Shown piece after piece: positions 17,049 through 24,916 of a stretch of DNA of 45,195 nt. A program made the translations under genes and the position numbers. Numbering within the stretch: position 1 is the stretch's first letter; every line of letters begins with the position of its first letter. Source of the stretch: Candidatus Kuenenia stuttgartensis (GTDB lineage Bacteria > Planctomycetota > Planctomycetia > Pirellulales > UBA1268); the NCBI GenBank assembly GCA_943332855.1, contig CALQRA010000012.1, forward strand, positions 1 to 45,195, written 5' to 3'. The notes below the pieces were generated by a model, which was given only the letters and a program-made list of their open reading frames with translations, was not told the DNA's origin and made no database searches.

Positions 17049-17131
17049 GCATGGGATCGAGCCAGACTGAAGGCCGCAGCCCGCCATCGCCCGCTCAAGC
17101 GGTTCGGGTCTCCCCCTGCACCGGGGAGGAT

Positions 17132-17195
17132 GGGATCGGCGAACGCTCGAGGAGAGAGGAGGTCCCCCGACGAACGACGAGACTTTTGCCGGCCC
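17132..17195 (+). repeat. dispersed repeat element, copy C (beta core)
   Basis: This 64-base segment in the 209-base gap between the two permease genes matches the cores at 24133-24197 and 24438-24502: it opens GGGATCGGCGAACGCT and ends CTTTTGCCGGCCC in all three. It is in the same orientation. It lacks the 5' part of the 125-base unit present in the other copies and has lost most of the central palindrome. Confidence 0.8.
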
Positions 17196-17257
17196 ATCCG
17201 GGGATCACTTCAGCGTCGTTGGGGCGCGTGCTTGACCATTCCAGGGAACCACGTCCG

Positions 17258-18116: not shown

Positions 18117-19547
18117 ATGGCAACTGATCCCGGTGCCGACGTTCGCCGTCGCGGGTTCCACGAAGACTCCGCCGCGATCCTCATCGGTGTGGCGCTGGTG
18201 GCGCTGGCGCTGGCCATCGGCTGGAGCACTCGGCCGACCGGGGATGCGGCCAGCCGCAAGGCCTTCCCGAAGGGCTGGCCCAATCGGCTTTCTGCGACGA
18301 TCGACAAGCCACAGACCTGGAGCGATGCGCCACAGCAAGCCCTCGTCGTCGTCGACAAGAAAGACAAGACGAAGGTCAAGCCGGTCTCGATCCCGATCCT
18401 CCTCGGGATGACGTGGGTCGTCGGCATCCTCGCCGCCGGCACACTTTTGCGGGGCCGGTCGCTCGCCGCCGTCCTCCCCGGGGCATGCTTGCTTGCGCTC
18501 CTCGGTGGCCTTGCCTATCTGATGGCCGCACAGAAGGTGATCAACTACTACAACCTTGAGTATCCCCTCTGGGCGCTTCTCGTCGGCCTCGTCATCGGCA
18601 ATACCATTGGCGTAGCAAGGTGGCTCGAGCCGGCGCTCCAGGGGGAGTTTCTCATCAAGACCGGGCTGGTGGTGTTTGGGGCGGAGGTCCTCTTCAGCCG
18701 GCTCCTCGAGCTCGGCCTGCCGGGACTCCTGACGAGCTGGGTGGTGACGCCGATCGTCCTGGTCGTCACCTATCTGTTCGGGGTCCACTGGTTGAAGATC
18801 CCCTCCAAGAGCCTGTGCATGGTGATCGCTGCCGACATGTCGGTGTGCGGGGTGTCGGCGGCGATCGCCACCGGCGCTGCCTGCAAGGCGAAGAAGGAGG
18901 AGCTGTCGCTGGCGATCGGGCTGTCGCTGCTGTTCACCGTGGCGATGATGGTGGTGATGCCGCCGTTCATCCAGTGGGCGGGGATCGATCCGATCGTCGG
19001 GGGCGCCTGGCTCGGTGGCACGATCGATGCCACCGGGGCCGTCGTCGCCGCCGGCGAGATGCTCGGGAAGAATCTCGACGACAAGCGCCCGGCCGAAGTG
19101 GCGGCCACGGTGAAGATGATCCAGAACTCGATGATCGGGATCATCGCCTTCGCGGTTGCCGTCTACTGGGCCGGCTGGGTCGATCGCGATGCGGCCGGCC
19201 CGAAGACGTCGCTCGTGGCCGAGGCCTGGCGTCGGTTTCCAAAGTTCATCCTCGGCTTCATCGGCACGTCGATCGTCTGCTCCTGGCTGTTCACGATGTC
19301 GCCCGAGCTCGCGCTCCTCGTCGACGGCGCAATCAACGGATTCACGTCGCGGCTGCGCGGCTGGCTGTTCTGTGTGGGCTTCATCTGCATGGGGCTGCAG
19401 ACGAACTTCCGCGAGCTTGCTCCGACGCTCGCCAGCGGCCGGCCGCTGATCCTCTATTGTGGAGGCCAAGTGCTCAATCTCGTCCTCTCCCTGGCGATGG
19501 CGAGCCTGACGTTCGGCTGGCTCTTCCGGCAAGGGGTGACGCCGTGA
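18117..19547 (+). CDS. YeiH/UPF0324 family membrane transporter
   Basis: The 476-residue product belongs to the YeiH (UPF0324, putative sulfate exporter) family, with about 11-13 membrane helices. Family hallmarks are [50 protein letters not shown] and [17 protein letters not shown]. It is longer than the usual 330-350 residues: about 100 extra N-terminal residues add a hydrophobic helix and a soluble loop with [12 protein letters not shown] 18117 has a good Shine-Dalgarno (AAAGGAG). The gene may be cotranscribed with the permease gene ending 40 bases upstream. The substrate is unproven even for the family. Confidence 0.88.
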
Positions 19548-19798
19548 CACATCCCTCCGGCATCCTCCCGAAGATTCCCCCCGGGCTGCGGCTGGCCTTC
19601 GCCACGGCGATTCTCGCGGTCGTCTGGCTCGTCGTTCTTCCCTCAATCGGCCGGTACCCCGCCGTCGAGCGGCATGTGCGGCTGATGGAGTCGCGCGACG
19701 TCAATCCCTCGGCGATGGTCTACACGGAGCTCGAGCATCTGCCGCTCCGCCCGGCCTGGATCGAGCGCCACCTCGTTCTCTGGCCGACGGGAAACTAG
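19544..19798 (+). CDS. small single-pass membrane protein coupled to YeiH
   Basis: The GTG start at 19544 overlaps the YeiH stop as GTGA. The 84-residue product has one clear membrane helix near residues 16-33 ([18 protein letters not shown]) after a basic-proline N terminus, then a charged tail with R, E and H ([14 protein letters not shown]) and a final segment [18 protein letters not shown] do not recognise a family. The overlap and its size suggest an accessory subunit of the transporter. It is read as real because it uses the coupling arrangement common here, but homologues would be needed to confirm it. Confidence 0.6.
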
Positions 19799-19862
19799 AC
19801 TCTCTCGGTCCCGGGGGGAGTCATGGCCTGTCGGCCGGTCCCCCCGCCAGCTCGGAGTCATC

Positions 19863-20729
19863 ATGCCCCTCTCCCTCGCCTTCTCCTCCAACGCCTACCT
19901 CGATGTCCCCGTGGAGCAGGCGATCCGCCGGATCGCCAGCTTCGGCTATTCCGGCATCGAGCTCCTCGCCGACGTCCCCCATGCCTGGCCCGCCGGCCTG
20001 CTCGGCGTTCAGAAAGACTCGATCCGCCGGGCCCTGGCCGAGTCAGGCCTGACGATTTCCAACATCAACGCGTTCATGATGAACGCCATCGCCGATCCCC
20101 GGCAGCCCTACTGGCATCCCGGCTGGACCGACCCCGACCGCCACTACCGGGCAATCCGCCGTGAGCACACGAAGCGTGCCCTCCGTCTGGCGGCCGAACT
20201 CGGCGCCAAGACGATCTCCACCGAGCCGGGTGGCGAGGTCGCCGAGGGGCAGACCTACGCCCAGGCCACCGACATCTTCTACGACGAGATCATGCCGGTC
20301 CTCGACGTGGCCGCAGAGGTCGGGGTGACGCTCCTGATCGAGCCGGAGCCGGGGCTGCTGATCGAGAAGTTCGGGCAGTATCTCGAGTTTGCCGAGCGTG
20401 TGAATCACCCCGCCCTCGGCCTCAACTTCGACATCGGCCATGCCTATTGCGTCTCCGAGGATCCGGCCGAGTGGGTGCCGATCATGAAGCCCCACACGAA
20501 GCACTACCACTTCGAGGACATCGCCGCGACGCGGGTTCACCACCACCTCGTTCCCGGTGACGGGGCGATCGACTTCGACGGGGTGTTCCGCGCCATCGCC
20601 GAACACACGCCCGACATCTGGGTGACCGTCGAGCTCTACCCCAACCGCGCCAAGCCGGACGAAGCGGCGAAGGCCGCGCGGGAATACCTCCAAGCCAGTG
20701 CCGGCCGGGCCGGCGTGGCGATCGGGTGA
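19863..20729 (+). CDS. sugar phosphate isomerase/epimerase (TIM barrel) 1
   Basis: The 288-residue product is an AP-endonuclease-2/xylose-isomerase-like TIM barrel. It starts LAFSSNAYLDVPVEQAI, has the strand motif IEPEPGLLIE and the metal-site segments NFDIGHAYC, HYHFEDIA and VTVELYPNRA. The E-D/H-H-E pattern suggests a divalent-metal isomerase or epimerase of a small polyol or sugar. There is no signal peptide. It starts 64 bases after the small membrane protein gene and its stop overlaps the prenyltransferase start as GTGA. Position in front of EboC- and EboF-like genes suggests that it belongs to the same pathway; the substrate is unknown. Confidence 0.88.
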   Translation: MPLSLAFSSNAYLDVPVEQAIRRIASFGYSGIELLADVPHAWPAGLLGVQKDSIRRALAESGLTISNINAFMMNAIADPRQPYWHPGWTDPDRHYRAIRREHTKRALRLAAELGAKTISTEPGGEVAEGQTYAQATDIFYDEIMPVLDVAAEVGVTLLIEPEPGLLIEKFGQYLEFAERVNHPALGLNFDIGHAYCVSEDPAEWVPIMKPHTKHYHFEDIAATRVHHHLVPGDGAIDFDGVFRAIAEHTPDIWVTVELYPNRAKPDEAAKAAREYLQASAGRAGVAIG

Positions 20730-21688
20730 CGCGCATGGGGCAAGGGCTCGCCTGGGCACGACTGCTGCGGCTGCCGAATCACTTCACGGCGATCGCCGAC
20801 GTCCTCGCCGGCTATCTCGTCGTCGCCGGGCTGACCTCGCTCCATGCGCGGCCGGCAATGATTCTGGCCGCCGCCGCGGGCTGGGCGTTCTATGCCGCTG
20901 GGATGGTGCTCAACGATGTCTTCGACGTTGCCCTCGATTCAGTCGAGCGCCCCGAGCGTCCGCTCCCCTCCGGGCAGATCGACGTGAAGACAGCGGCGCT
21001 GGTCGGCCAGGGATTACTGGCGCTGGCTGGCCTGGGAGCGTGCGGCGCGGCCTTCGCCTCGGGGTATCCGGCGCCGGCGCTGGTCGGAGCAGGGCTCACC
21101 GCAGCGATCTGGACCTACGACCGGCATGCCAAGAGCACCCCCTTCGGCCCGGCCGTGATGGGGCTCTGCCGAGGGCTCAACTGGCTCCTGGGAATGTCGG
21201 CCGCCGGCGGCCCGCTCCTCCTGCCCCACTGGCTGATCCCGGTGGGAATCGCCGTCTATGTGGCGGGGATCACGCTCTACGCCCGCGACGAGGCAACGAT
21301 GAGCAGGCGGGCGGCGCTGGCTCGGGCCACGGCCACGATGGCCCTGGGGCTGGTGCTGGCCGGCTGTGGTGCGTTCTTCGGCGTGCGGGCTTCCACCGGC
21401 GCGATCCCCTGGGCGGGCGCGGTCCAGCCCGGGATGGCCGTCGACCGGCTCACCGCCTGGACGATCCTGTGGACGCTGGTGTCGGCCTCGATCCTCCTCC
21501 GCGCTGGAATTGGCGTGCTCAACCCCGTGCCGCAGGCTGTCCGTGCGGCGGTCGGCAACGCGATCATGTCGCTGATCACCCTCGACGCGATCCTCGTGCT
21601 CTCCGTCTGCGGCGAGCCGTGGGCCGTGGTGATCCTCGTGCTCCTCGCGCCTTTTCAACTCCTGCGGCGTTTCATCCCCCCCCCCTGA
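20726..21688 (+). CDS. UbiA-superfamily prenyltransferase, EboC-like
   Basis: The 320-residue membrane protein has the UbiA signature NDVFDVALD (residues 63-71) and a second aspartate motif YDRHAK near residue 131, with about eight hydrophobic helices. The stretch LPNHFTAIADVLAGY and the run VERPERPLPSG after the first motif match my recollection of EboC, the UbiA-like protein of the ebo operon. UbiA enzymes transfer an isoprenoid or related group to an acceptor in the membrane. The GTG start overlaps the preceding gene by four bases; an ATG nine bases later is an alternative. Nineteen bases separate it from the next gene. The acceptor and donor are unknown. Confidence 0.85.
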   Translation: MTRMGQGLAWARLLRLPNHFTAIADVLAGYLVVAGLTSLHARPAMILAAAAGWAFYAAGMVLNDVFDVALDSVERPERPLPSGQIDVKTAALVGQGLLALAGLGACGAAFASGYPAPALVGAGLTAAIWTYDRHAKSTPFGPAVMGLCRGLNWLLGMSAAGGPLLLPHWLIPVGIAVYVAGITLYARDEATMSRRAALARATATMALGLVLAGCGAFFGVRASTGAIPWAGAVQPGMAVDRLTAWTILWTLVSASILLRAGIGVLNPVPQAVRAAVGNAIMSLITLDAILVLSVCGEPWAVVILVLLAPFQLLRRFIPPP

Positions 21689-21706
21689 CCGGCACCCGCC
21701 GCCGCC

Positions 21707-22609
21707 ATGCGCCCCGGATTCAGCACCAACAGCATCGGCGACGTGCCGCCGGCCGACGCCGTCGCGATCCTCGCCGATCTGGGCTACCGGTCGCTGGCGC
21801 TCACCCCCGATCACGATCTCTTCTCCGGCGTAGCCACAGGGAGCCTCGCCGGCCTCTCCGCCGAGATCGATCACTGGCGCTCGCTCCTGGCCCACACGCG
21901 GATGGCCTGCACCATAGAGACGGGTGCCCGCCATCTCCTCGATCCCCTCCACAAGCACGAGCCGACCCTCGTCTCCCCCGATCCCACCGCCCGGAAGCGC
22001 CGCGTCGACTTCCTCCTCGCGGCAGTCGATCTTGCCGCCGAACTGGGCGCCAAGTCAGGCGCCGAGTCGGGCGCTCCCTGCCTCTCCCTCTGGTCGGGCG
22101 TGGGGCGCGACGCCGCCGACGACCCGACCATCCTCGACCGGCTCTGCACCGGCCTTGGGCCCGTCATCGAGCGGGCGACGAAGCGTGGCGTGCAGCTGGG
22201 ATTCGAGCCGGAACCGGGCATGGTGATCGATACGCTGGCCCGGTGGGCCCTGCTCCGCGACCGCCTCGGTAATCCGCAGTGCTTCGGCCTCACCGTCGAT
22301 CTCGGCCACTTGGAGTGCATGGGGGAATGGCCCCTCGCTGCCAGGCTCGAGCCCTATGTCGAAACAATCGTCAATGTTCATGTCGACGACATGCTCGCCT
22401 GCCGCCACGATCATCTCCCCCTCGGAGCCGGCGACGTCGATTTTGCCGCCCTGCTCCCCCTCCTCGCCGCCGCCGGCTATGACGGGGGGCTTCATGTCGA
22501 GCTTCCCCGCCAGTCCCACCGCTGGCTCGACACCGCCCGCGAGTCGTTCTCCTTCCTCACCCGCCACCTTCCCCCTGCCGCCTCCCACTCTCCCCGGAGC
22601 CACCGATGA
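21707..22609 (+). CDS. TIM-barrel sugar isomerase/epimerase-like protein 2
   Basis: The 300-residue product is another xylose-isomerase-like TIM barrel, starting MRPGFSTNSIGDVPPADAVA. Likely metal-site segments are FEPEPGMVID, TVDLGHLECM, VNVHVDDM and HVELPRQSHRW, giving an E-D-H-E pattern. It is distinct from the isomerase at 19863 but shares its fold. A 12-bp tandem duplication (22046-22069) encodes GAKSGAES in a loop. It lies between the EboC-like and EboF-like genes and overlaps the latter as ATGA. In ebo operons a TIM-barrel protein (EboE) occupies this position, but this sequence is not obviously a true EboE. Confidence 0.82.
   Translation: MRPGFSTNSIGDVPPADAVAILADLGYRSLALTPDHDLFSGVATGSLAGLSAEIDHWRSLLAHTRMACTIETGARHLLDPLHKHEPTLVSPDPTARKRRVDFLLAAVDLAAELGAKSGAESGAPCLSLWSGVGRDAADDPTILDRLCTGLGPVIERATKRGVQLGFEPEPGMVIDTLARWALLRDRLGNPQCFGLTVDLGHLECMGEWPLAARLEPYVETIVNVHVDDMLACRHDHLPLGAGDVDFAALLPLLAAAGYDGGLHVELPRQSHRWLDTARESFSFLTRHLPPAASHSPRSHR
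22046..22069 (+). repeat. 12-bp in-frame tandem duplication
   Basis: Units 22046-22057 and 22058-22069 differ at two bases and encode GAKS and GAES; a partial third unit (GGCGCT) follows. The repeat lies in a loop of the TIM-barrel gene. Confidence 0.75.
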
Positions 22610-24012
22610 CCGACGCCGCCGACCCCCAGCCGCTCCACGTCCTCTTCCTTTCGGTCCCCGGCCTGCGGCCTGAAGACCTCGCCCGGATGCCGGTCGTGGC
22701 CGGGCTTGCCGCGCTCGGTGGGAAGGTGCCGCTTGCGCCCTGTTTCCCCGCCGTCACCTGCCCGGTGCAGGCGACGCTCACCACCGGCGGCACGCCGCGG
22801 AAGCACGGGATCATGGCCAACGGCGTCTACGACCGCAACGAGCACCATCTCGAAATGTGGATCAGCCCCGACTCGGTCCACCGGATCCCGAGGATTTGGG
22901 ACCGCCTCAAGGCCTCCCGTCCGGAGCTGCGCACCGCCGCCTGGTTTCTCCTCCAGTCGAAGCACGCCACGGCCGATCTCGTCTGCCTCCCGGCCCCCCG
23001 GCACAACCCCGACGGCACCGAGACGATGTGGTGCCACACAAACCCGGAGCCGCTCTACGCGACTCTCCGGGAGAGCCTCGGCGACTTCCCGCTCCACAAG
23101 TTCTGGGGGCCGCTGGCCGGCATCGAATCCTCGCGCTGGATCGCCCAGAGCTTCCTCGCCGCCGCCCAGGAAGCCCCGCCGCATCTGGCCGTTGTCTATC
23201 TCCCCCACCTCGACTACGCCGCGCAGCGACAAGGCCCCGACAGCGACGCCGCCCACGCCGCTTGCGGCGAGCTCGACGCCGAGATCGGGGCCCTCGTCGA
23301 GGAGTATGGAAGGCTTGTAGGGGTGGAGAATCTGGTCGTCGTCGTGGCGGGTGAATACCGGATCCGCCCGGTGACGCACGCCGTTTTCGTCAACCGCATC
23401 CTCCGCGATGTCGGCCTGCTCTTCGTCAAGGGTTCCCCCGACGGGGAGCTGATCGACATGGAGAAGAGCCGGGCGTGGGCGCTGGCTGATCACCAGGTAG
23501 CGCATGTCTTTCTCAAGCTCGGCCTGGCGCGTGAGGAGCGTGACCGGCTGGTGCAGCAGATCCACACCCTCTTCGACACCCGGCGCGGCGTGAAGCAGGT
23601 CTATTCGGGAACGGCGCTTATCGGCGCGGCGCTCTCCGACACCCCCGTCCCGGCGCTGGCCAGCCACTGCGGCGATGTCGTGCTCGAGAGCACGTCGGAG
23701 GCCTGGTTTGCCTATCCGTGGTGGGTCGACGTCAACAAGGCGCCGACCTTCGCCCGCACGATCGACATCCACAAGAAGCCGGGCTACGACCCGCTCGAGA
23801 TGTTCATCGACCGGACCGCACCGCCGCCGCCGGGGATGCCGTTCGGGATCCCGCTCGACACGAATCTCGTCAAGGGCTCGCACGGCGCGATCGACGCCGA
23901 TGATCCCCACGAGACGATCCTCATCTGCTCCCGCCCCGACGTCATCGGCTCCGAGCCCCTCCACGCCCGCGACGTGGCCGGCATCGTGCTCAAGCTCTTC
24001 GGGGCGAAGTGA
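22606..24012 (+). CDS. EboF-like phosphodiesterase/nucleotide pyrophosphatase homologue
   Basis: The 468-residue product has the alkaline-phosphatase-superfamily (type I phosphodiesterase) fold. The nucleophile block is kept: PAVTCPVQATLTTG, T51 being the expected nucleophile, followed by HGIMANGVY. Other metal ligands are changed: the usual N-terminal DG is PG (P18), the usual D-x3-H is D203 with Q207 (HLDYAAQRQGPDSD), and the usual DH pair is E250-Y251 (AGEYRI). The C-terminal H426 in KGSHG is kept. From memory, EboF-type proteins share these replacements. It has no signal peptide and starts with an ATGA overlap. It may bind or process the prenylated product of the cluster, or may not be a classical two-metal enzyme. 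Confidence 0.8.
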   Translation: MTDAADPQPLHVLFLSVPGLRPEDLARMPVVAGLAALGGKVPLAPCFPAVTCPVQATLTTGGTPRKHGIMANGVYDRNEHHLEMWISPDSVHRIPRIWDRLKASRPELRTAAWFLLQSKHATADLVCLPAPRHNPDGTETMWCHTNPEPLYATLRESLGDFPLHKFWGPLAGIESSRWIAQSFLAAAQEAPPHLAVVYLPHLDYAAQRQGPDSDAAHAACGELDAEIGALVEEYGRLVGVENLVVVVAGEYRIRPVTHAVFVNRILRDVGLLFVKGSPDGELIDMEKSRAWALADHQVAHVFLKLGLAREERDRLVQQIHTLFDTRRGVKQVYSGTALIGAALSDTPVPALASHCGDVVLESTSEAWFAYPWWVDVNKAPTFARTIDIHKKPGYDPLEMFIDRTAPPPPGMPFGIPLDTNLVKGSHGAIDADDPHETILICSRPDVIGSEPLHARDVAGIVLKLFGAK

Positions 24013-24051
24013 GGCGCGGGGCGACGCTGCTTACCGGATCTGCTTCGAACT

Positions 24052-24086
24052 CAAACTTCGCTTCGGGGTCGCCCGTGCCCCGTCGC
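24052..24086 (+). repeat. repeat module alpha, copy A
   Basis: This 35-base unit has 32 matches to 24241-24275. The shared core is GCTTCGGGGTCGCCC, then a variable base and TGCCCCGTCGC. It directly abuts beta copy A, overlapping it by three bases. Confidence 0.8.
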
Positions 24087-24208
24087 TGGCGGCGTCGCGC
24101 GGGGTGCTTTTCGAGAGCGCGTAGACGAGGCGGGGATCGGCGAACGCTTGAGGAGTGACGAGGTTCCTCCGAGGAACGACGAAACTTTTGCCGGCCCCGC
24201 CGACGAAC
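24084..24208 (+). repeat. dispersed repeat element, module beta, copy A (125 bp)
   Basis: By eye it matches 24389-24513 at 118 of 125 positions with no gaps. It contains the odd palindrome GTTCCTC-C-GAGGAAC at 24163-24177, followed by CTTTTGCCGGCC. Its core (24133-24197) is found a third time at 17132-17195. Confidence 0.9.
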
Positions 24209-24240
24209 CCCCCACGGGCTCGCCACCCAGGCTTCCATCC

Positions 24241-24275
24241 CAAACGTAGCTTCGGGGTCGCCCATGCCCCGTCGC
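24241..24275 (+). repeat. repeat module alpha, copy B
   Basis: This copy differs from 24052-24086 at three of 35 positions. It is followed not by a beta module but by about 100 bases of unique sequence with a hairpin. Confidence 0.8.
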
Positions 24276-24284
24276 CGGACGTTC

Positions 24285-24308
24285 GCGGAGGGCATCCATG
24301 CCCTCCGC
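24285..24308. repeat. perfect 11-bp inverted repeat with two-base centre
   Basis: The arms GCGGAGGGCAT and ATGCCCTCCGC are separated by CC. It is the strongest single palindrome in the gap and lies between the two beta repeats. Confidence 0.85.
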
Positions 24309-24388
24309 TCTCTCAGCGCCGCTATCGCTTTCGCCCTCCTATCCTGCGCTCACCGGCGAGGCCGGCTCTCGGAGCACGGGCGACCCCT

Positions 24389-24513
24389 CGCTGGCGGCGT
24401 CACGCGGGGTGCTTTTCGAGAGCGCCCAGGCGAGGCGGGGATCGGCGAACGCTTGAGGAGTGACGAGGTGCCTCCGAGTCACGACGAAACTTTTGCCGGC
24501 CCCGCCGACGAAC
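24389..24513 (+). repeat. dispersed repeat element, module beta, copy B (125 bp)
   Basis: This second copy is 305 bases downstream of the first, in the same orientation. In its palindrome (24468-24482) one pair has changed on both arms (T-A to G-C), while the next pair is broken. Confidence 0.9.
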
Positions 24514-24556
24514 GACCCACAGGCCCTCTCCCATCCAGCACCCCACTGAGCCCCGT

Positions 24557-24916
24557 TCACACCCATTCCACCGGCTGCGGCTCGAGGGTGTCGGCGGGGC
24601 GCTTGCCCGCATCGGCGCGGCCGGAGCCGGCGAGGCGGTGTGGCGCCTTCACGCTCATGTCTTGATCGCAGAGCATCTGGCAGGAGAGCCGCACGCCGGG
24701 CGTCGTGATCCCCTTGGCGGCGAGGACATTCTTCTCCGCCTTCGTCATCGCGGCCGGCTCGCCGCCGACAAACTCCACCCGGCAGGTGGTGCAGCGGCCG
24801 TTGCCGCCACAGGCATGGAGCTGATCGATCCCGCACTCGTCAACGAGCGCGTTGACCAGCCGCTTGCCGGCGGGAACCTCGAAATCACCGACGCCATCGA
24901 CGGAAAGCTTGGGCAT
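24557..24916 (-). CDS. [2Fe-2S] ferredoxin (plant/adrenodoxin fold)
   Basis: The 119-residue product carries the 2Fe-2S ligand pattern: C-x5-C-x2-C in ACGGNGRCTTCRVEF and a fourth Cys in RLSCQMLC about 35-40 residues later. The fold begins MPKLSVDGVGDFEVPAGKRL. It is a soluble cytoplasmic electron carrier. The C-terminal 25 residues are a charged, probably flexible tail (RADAGKRPADTLEPQPVEWV) that is not part of the core fold. It has a GGAG element about 9 bases before ATG. The partner reductase or oxygenase is not in the window. It lies 56 bases downstream of the terminator of the neighbouring minus-strand gene, so it should have its own promoter. Confidence 0.92.
   Translation of the reverse strand: MPKLSVDGVGDFEVPAGKRLVNALVDECGIDQLHACGGNGRCTTCRVEFVGGEPAAMTKAEKNVLAAKGITTPGVRLSCQMLCDQDMSVKAPHRLAGSGRADAGKRPADTLEPQPVEWV

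Follow-up and report, generated by a model that had tools for sequence, protein, structure and literature searches.

The best understood interspersed palindromes of bacteria are explained by RAYT transposases. In integron attC sites, the folded strand carries its extrahelical bases on a single side, the apical structure is variable, and the sites follow one another head to tail. REP elements are defined as palindromes of 20-40 bp with an unpaired GTAG/CGTC tag, in which head-to-head dimers predominate and head-to-tail dimers are rare (PMC3733652). Class 3 TnpA-Y1 proteins, which are atypical and occur with high-copy hairpins, are reported mainly from Planctomycetes (PMC6006769). The window, which is the whole stretch of 45,195 nucleotides analysed here, carries three copies of a hairpin element, beta, which is as numerous and as structurally constrained as the RAYT palindromes, yet no RAYT partner was found for it and its dimer geometry is the opposite one.

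Two of the copies lie in a noncoding island 3' of a PF01663 phosphodiesterase gene and ahead of a convergent Fer2 ferredoxin gene (24557-24916, minus strand), where the modules follow in the order alpha-remnant, beta, alpha, beta. The beta units at 24084-24208 and 24389-24513 are identical at 118 of 125 positions by direct comparison, exactly the count of the initial annotation, and the second-best ungapped match to the unit inside the window reaches 62/125. The hairpin core of copy 1 is located at 24123-24208 (covariance model score 113.5 bits, E 2.6e-23) inside a full repeat unit of about 24079-24219, delimited by BLAST. Its basal stem is formed by the 5' arm GGCGGGG (24129-24135) and the 3' arm CCCCGCC (24195-24201), a stem with strong covariation in other genera, and further up a mismatch ladder of tandem G.A/A.G between Watson-Crick pairs is recognized from column counts (5' side 24150-24161, 3' side 24171-24182), with compensatory changes in the pairs between the mismatches. 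Copy 2 has its core at 24428-24513 (111.3 bits, E 8.4e-23) and its full unit at about 24384-24524. The core near 17132-17195 mentioned in the initial annotation is also real: BLAST matches 17126-17195 (87%, E 1.7e-17) and the hairpin of this copy 3 extends over 17122-17206 (96.9 bits, E 2.6e-19), in the gap that separates an ABC2_membrane_6 gene from the next. Its basal stem, GGATGGG/CCCATCC, differs from that of copy 1 and is compensated. All window copies are on the plus strand and between genes, as first described. The region 18117-24012 of the window holds an ebo-like cluster composed of an EboC-like prenyltransferase, two TIM-barrel sugar isomerase-like proteins and the phosphodiesterase; the prenyltransferase (20726-21688) has NF035940 as its top NCBIfam match, with a score below the cut-off.

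The alpha module at 24236-24398 (plus strand) is an inverted-repeat element of about 150 bp, defined by matches in its own genome, by the family search and by a fold z of -3.6. The initial annotation saw no terminal repeat pair, but one exists in alpha, where the arms are GGGGTCGCCC (24254-24263) and GGGCGACCCC (24378-24387). The two 35-bp alpha modules described there are present as sequences but are pieces of this longer element, the second of them being its left arm; the element is complete once and persists once as a deletion remnant at 24052-24089 (plus strand), where the left arm is fused to the right flank, as indicated by the sequence and by a BLAST match to alpha positions 6-43. Alpha has 39 BLAST matches in its own genome, always parallel to beta, and is found in 62 of the 72 genomes of the family, with up to 230 first-look candidates in a genome; some genomes, such as G020, G029, G067 and G069, have alpha and no detected beta. 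Since alpha and beta come and go separately at orthologous sites, alpha is a separate element. Other short repeats were seen close to these modules: a direct-repeat array of GCATCACCCA-type units adjoins an alpha copy at L021:1150-1290, and upstream of beta in two loci of genus g8 (L066 and L067) there are short palindromes of the GCATGGCATCCTGCCATGC and GCAAACGCAGTTTGC types, in opposite order between the loci.

The searches of this genome and its relatives and the covariance model, which had been proposed together with the first description, were run and recovered a family, so the observation is real and larger in extent than first noted. The 141-bp beta unit matches 30 places by BLAST in the 4.9-Mb genome of the window, and a covariance model built from 23 copies detects 27 hairpins there, where three copies had been noticed before. 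The outcome that the initial annotation named as a refutation, just these three copies in any genome, is thereby clearly contradicted. Within the same family the model finds beta in 60/72 genomes and 10/12 genera, in agreement with the earlier suggestion of a repeat family of this lineage. Counts among related species range from 0 to about 76 per genome, with 0 in G012 and G029, which are 94-97% complete. The model matched none of 23 genomes of other families of the same order, and a model from the other genera, with the 15 best candidates per genome scored, matched none of 293 further genomes across the rest of the phylum. A scan with the exact core pattern, with one genome per species, gave at least 116 stretches; the 80 among the matches listed are all in planctomycete assemblies, whose isolate names often come from a lake or reservoir. 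These loci are used for distribution and context only and are left out of the conservation evidence because the pattern itself fixes those bases. Some public assemblies with beta (L135, L141 and L131) are labelled Candidatus Kuenenia stuttgartiensis or Planctomicrobium piriforme, and these records are probably mislabelled. The core pattern has no exact match in the viral contigs of IMG/VR, Rfam 15 gives no match at gathering score and only chance-level matches for the window and six loci of other genera, and searches of the literature on planctomycete interspersed repeats and noncoding RNA brought up no description of the element. Beta appears to be an undescribed hairpin element restricted to one family of freshwater Planctomycetes. 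A freshwater planctomycete clade has been named Vodnikaceae (PMC6461901), and we infer that the family which carries beta is this one. The covariance model is a marker for genome plasticity in such uncultured freshwater bacteria.

Fold of the beta hairpin—Beta is a single long imperfect hairpin in which the basal stem covaries, the middle is invariant and the apical arm varies, and its core in the window genus reads GGCGGGG-AU-CGGCGAACG-C-UYGAGGAG...CGACGARACUUUUGCCG-G-CCCCGCC. The 23 copies of the window genus have both-side changes in four pairs and 97.7% of their cells are paired, against at most 54.1% when the arms are slid. Among 72 distinct copies of other genera, both-side changes occur in 13 of 21 pairs and 94.8% of cells are paired (at most 54.9% slid), counts which refer to sequences rather than independent events, in an alignment made by a model that contains these same Watson-Crick pairs; none of 500 shuffles of this set scored as high on any of five measures. 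The basal stem varies freely in sequence while complementarity is kept. In the invariant middle of the same 72 copies, a bulged U is present in 70, a bulged C in 71 and a conserved G-U wobble in 67, and two tandem G-A mismatches, which the model treats as unpaired so that the alignment is not fitted to them, are kept in 61-71. In 8-9 copies G-C/C-G stands in place of the first tandem mismatch; between the two mismatches, the Watson-Crick pair reads G-C in 64 copies and C-G in 8. Outside the fixed wobble there are 17 G-U cells and one A-C, and therefore the plus strand is the folding one. Folded singly, most relatives have a stability far above that of shuffled sequence (z down to -6.1 as RNA and -4.8 as DNA), and the window copies have less distinctive folds as RNA (z -0.8, -2.9 and -1.1). 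The core measures 71-73 nt in the short form and 110-111 nt in the long form of the window genus, with model matches up to 131 nt, and the apical arm can be as short as a few bases or as long as about 75, short and long forms being found in several genera. Within genera, the A3 alignment (L066-L126, L363-L400) has both GAACG and GGAAG cores and apical arms of two lengths; the subfamilies are therefore either older than the genera or were exchanged between them.

Conservation of the predicted secondary structure is thus strongly supported, though part of the covariation in a family of many copies goes back to few ancestral events, and evolution appears to have preserved the folded shape of beta and not its sequence. 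Four other identities were considered and rejected. A protein-coding remnant, which the initial annotation had named as what would overturn its proposal, does not agree with apical arms that differ by single bases among copies, with changes that are paired across the hairpin, or with stops in two plus-strand frames. An intrinsic terminator would have a T-run after the hairpin, which is missing on either strand, and a kink-turn would have a three-base bulge, also missing. The minus strand of beta in the window genus has CGTC at its foot, as a CGTC-class REP would, but the other genera are without it.

Neighbouring alpha and beta modules are parallel in 27 cases against none, and adjacent betas less than 600 bp apart have the same orientation in 20 of 21 cases (15:1 in other genera and 5:0 in the window genome); tandem copies can be 5-45 bp apart. 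Neighbourhood clustering of 141 loci revealed ordinary, unrelated genes and no recurrent neighbour. With duplicates removed and home-made gene calls, which make the figures approximate, 53 of 74 copies have a 3' end as their nearest gene end and 5 of the 74 lie in divergent gaps; co-directional gaps show a weak sense bias (30:17, p 0.08). Beta tends toward gene 3' ends, and a strong sense-orientation bias was discarded as non-significant once duplicates were removed.

Orthologous sites of congeners, whose neighbouring proteins are about 96-97% identical, can hold beta, alpha, both, the long-loop variant or nothing. The site at 17.1 kb is filled only in G000 and G009, two of the ten genus genomes examined, and there the entire short spacer is replaced; the remaining genomes have unrelated spacers, mostly of about 12 nt. 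The phosphodiesterase site has beta-alpha in G001 and G006, an alpha remnant alone in G002, and neither module in G008, G011 or other genera. At the ilvD site, G009 has beta without alpha, G002 has alpha without beta and G004 has the long-loop form. The citrate synthase site is alpha-beta in G000, beta-alpha in G009 and alpha plus the long-loop form in G005; the spacer is short in G001, G002, G004 and G007, and likewise in G008, where no module is detectable. Judging from these comparisons, beta and alpha seem to be gained or lost independently in close relatives. No clean target-site duplication was found at the filled and empty junctions compared at the 17.1-kb, ilvD, citrate synthase and other sites; a 5-bp TGACG repeat at the ilvD junction is also explained by deletion, and scars at several sites are compatible with deletion between short repeats. 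Several sites could reflect losses instead of gains, although the phosphodiesterase site is empty in outgroup genera as well; since nearly all genomes are drafts, a copy that seems absent from a site may in some cases have been lost in assembly. These presence/absence sites make the mobility of beta directly testable.

Beta is probably an interspersed palindromic element that is non-autonomous and is mobile, or was until recently, with a plus-strand fold that would be read by a protein acting in trans. This reading is suggested by the dispersal of beta, its presence or absence in sister species, its limit to one family and selection that acts on a folded strand and keeps its unpaired bases; the trans-acting protein, a single-stranded intermediate and the direction of the copying step are what we infer from them. 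The information of beta would then be the folded single strand of fixed polarity, that is, the plus strand as given. Its recognition section would be the invariant middle with two bulged bases, the G-U wobble and two tandem G-A mismatches, and the conserved bulges and mismatches do look like a protein-recognition site; the basal stem would be free in sequence but obliged to pair, and the apical arm dispensable. The fold, whether present in RNA or in DNA that is single-stranded while it replicates, would be bound by a protein in trans, which would bring about its copying into further intergenic sites. Duplication or recombination would then give rise to tandem copies in head-to-tail order, copies would be lost through deletion between short repeats, and the window island may have been formed by such duplication and deletion. 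A more specific form of the idea, in which beta would be the recognition structure of an undescribed, one-family mobility system that acts in trans, has an enzyme that reads the folded single strand with its bulges and tandem G-A mismatches and works on DNA or by way of an RNA intermediate, and is unrelated to RAYTs and integrons, can be offered only tentatively.

The conserved core and bulges could be equally consistent with an RNA function. Tandem G-A mismatches, bulges and G-U wobbles are typical RNA recognition features, and they are combined in beta with a fixed folding strand and with a placement close to gene 3' ends and rarely in divergent gaps, so a multicopy structured RNA module with a host function, such as a 3'-UTR element recognised by an RNA-binding protein, with spread as a secondary matter, is a possible explanation, though not one that we expect to be correct. 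It does not fit well with copy numbers that fall to zero in nearly complete genomes of related species, the weak sense bias, the lack of an Rfam match, or tandem copies as close as 5 bp, which have no room for separate promoters. Paired changes alone would also be produced by template switching at replication forks, a known mutational process that corrects quasi-palindromes and would keep stems complementary without selection on the fold; this process would also erase mismatches, bulges and wobble, which are the best-conserved parts of beta, and it is a very improbable account of them.

Mobilisation of beta as a REP/REPIN-type element by a RAYT, a Y1 HUH transposase, is suggested by its high-copy intergenic hairpins near gene 3' ends, by Y1_Tnp matches in 26 of the 72 family genomes and by the planctomycete class 3 proteins mentioned above, but it is improbable. 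Y1_Tnp is missing from the window genome and from the high-copy G024 and G082 (93-95% complete), no beta hairpin lies within about 1.5 kb of the Y1 genes at the 20 best of 36 matches in the family, the proteins with readable motifs have NHWH...YVERNP and not the class 3 signature, and the REP definition fits poorly. Five congeners (L350, L351, L353, L355 and L356) share a nearly identical 244-aa Y1_Tnp with this motif, which has no beta nearby and was not found in the window genome. The conserved folded strand of beta, with its extrahelical bases on a single side, its variable apical part and its head-to-tail neighbours, would also suit a recombination site like attC that a tyrosine recombinase inserts in one orientation; with no cassette genes between copies and an outer stem unlike that of attC, this is hardly credible. 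No mobilising enzyme was found, and the spread of beta is accounted for by no known transposase.

Among described systems, REP/REPIN (BIME) elements share with beta a palindromic structure, an interspersed intergenic location near gene 3' ends and tens of copies, while beta has 71-131 nt instead of 20-40, no conserved GTAG/CGTC at its foot and neighbours in the same orientation instead of head-to-head. In the strict sense, the REP-like option of the initial annotation thus fails: on size, tag, orientation of dimers and link to a transposase, beta falls outside the REP definition of PMC3733652. The hairpins of class 3 TnpA-Y1 from Planctomycetes and Acidobacteria (PMC6006769) are likewise atypical and of high copy number, with a Y1 class that is mainly planctomycete; they were compared by description only, and differ in the motif and flanks of the Y1 proteins, as described above. 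The MITE option holds in form for alpha, which is non-coding and has inverted terminal arms, but no target-site duplication or parent transposon was found, and beta has no terminal repeats other than the arms of its own hairpin. Integron attC sites differ by RYYYAAC/GTTRRRY boxes, absent from the foot of beta, whose outer stem varies freely. ERIC, the enterobacterial RU-1 (127 bp) and other stem-loop repeats (PMC2267715) are intergenic repeats of about 125 bp with one long hairpin, as beta is; beta is set apart from them by description, since it occurs in other bacteria, has a free covarying basal stem around a fixed mismatch-rich core and is accompanied by alpha. Beta works like REP or ERIC repeats in that it is a hairpin dispersed through the genome.
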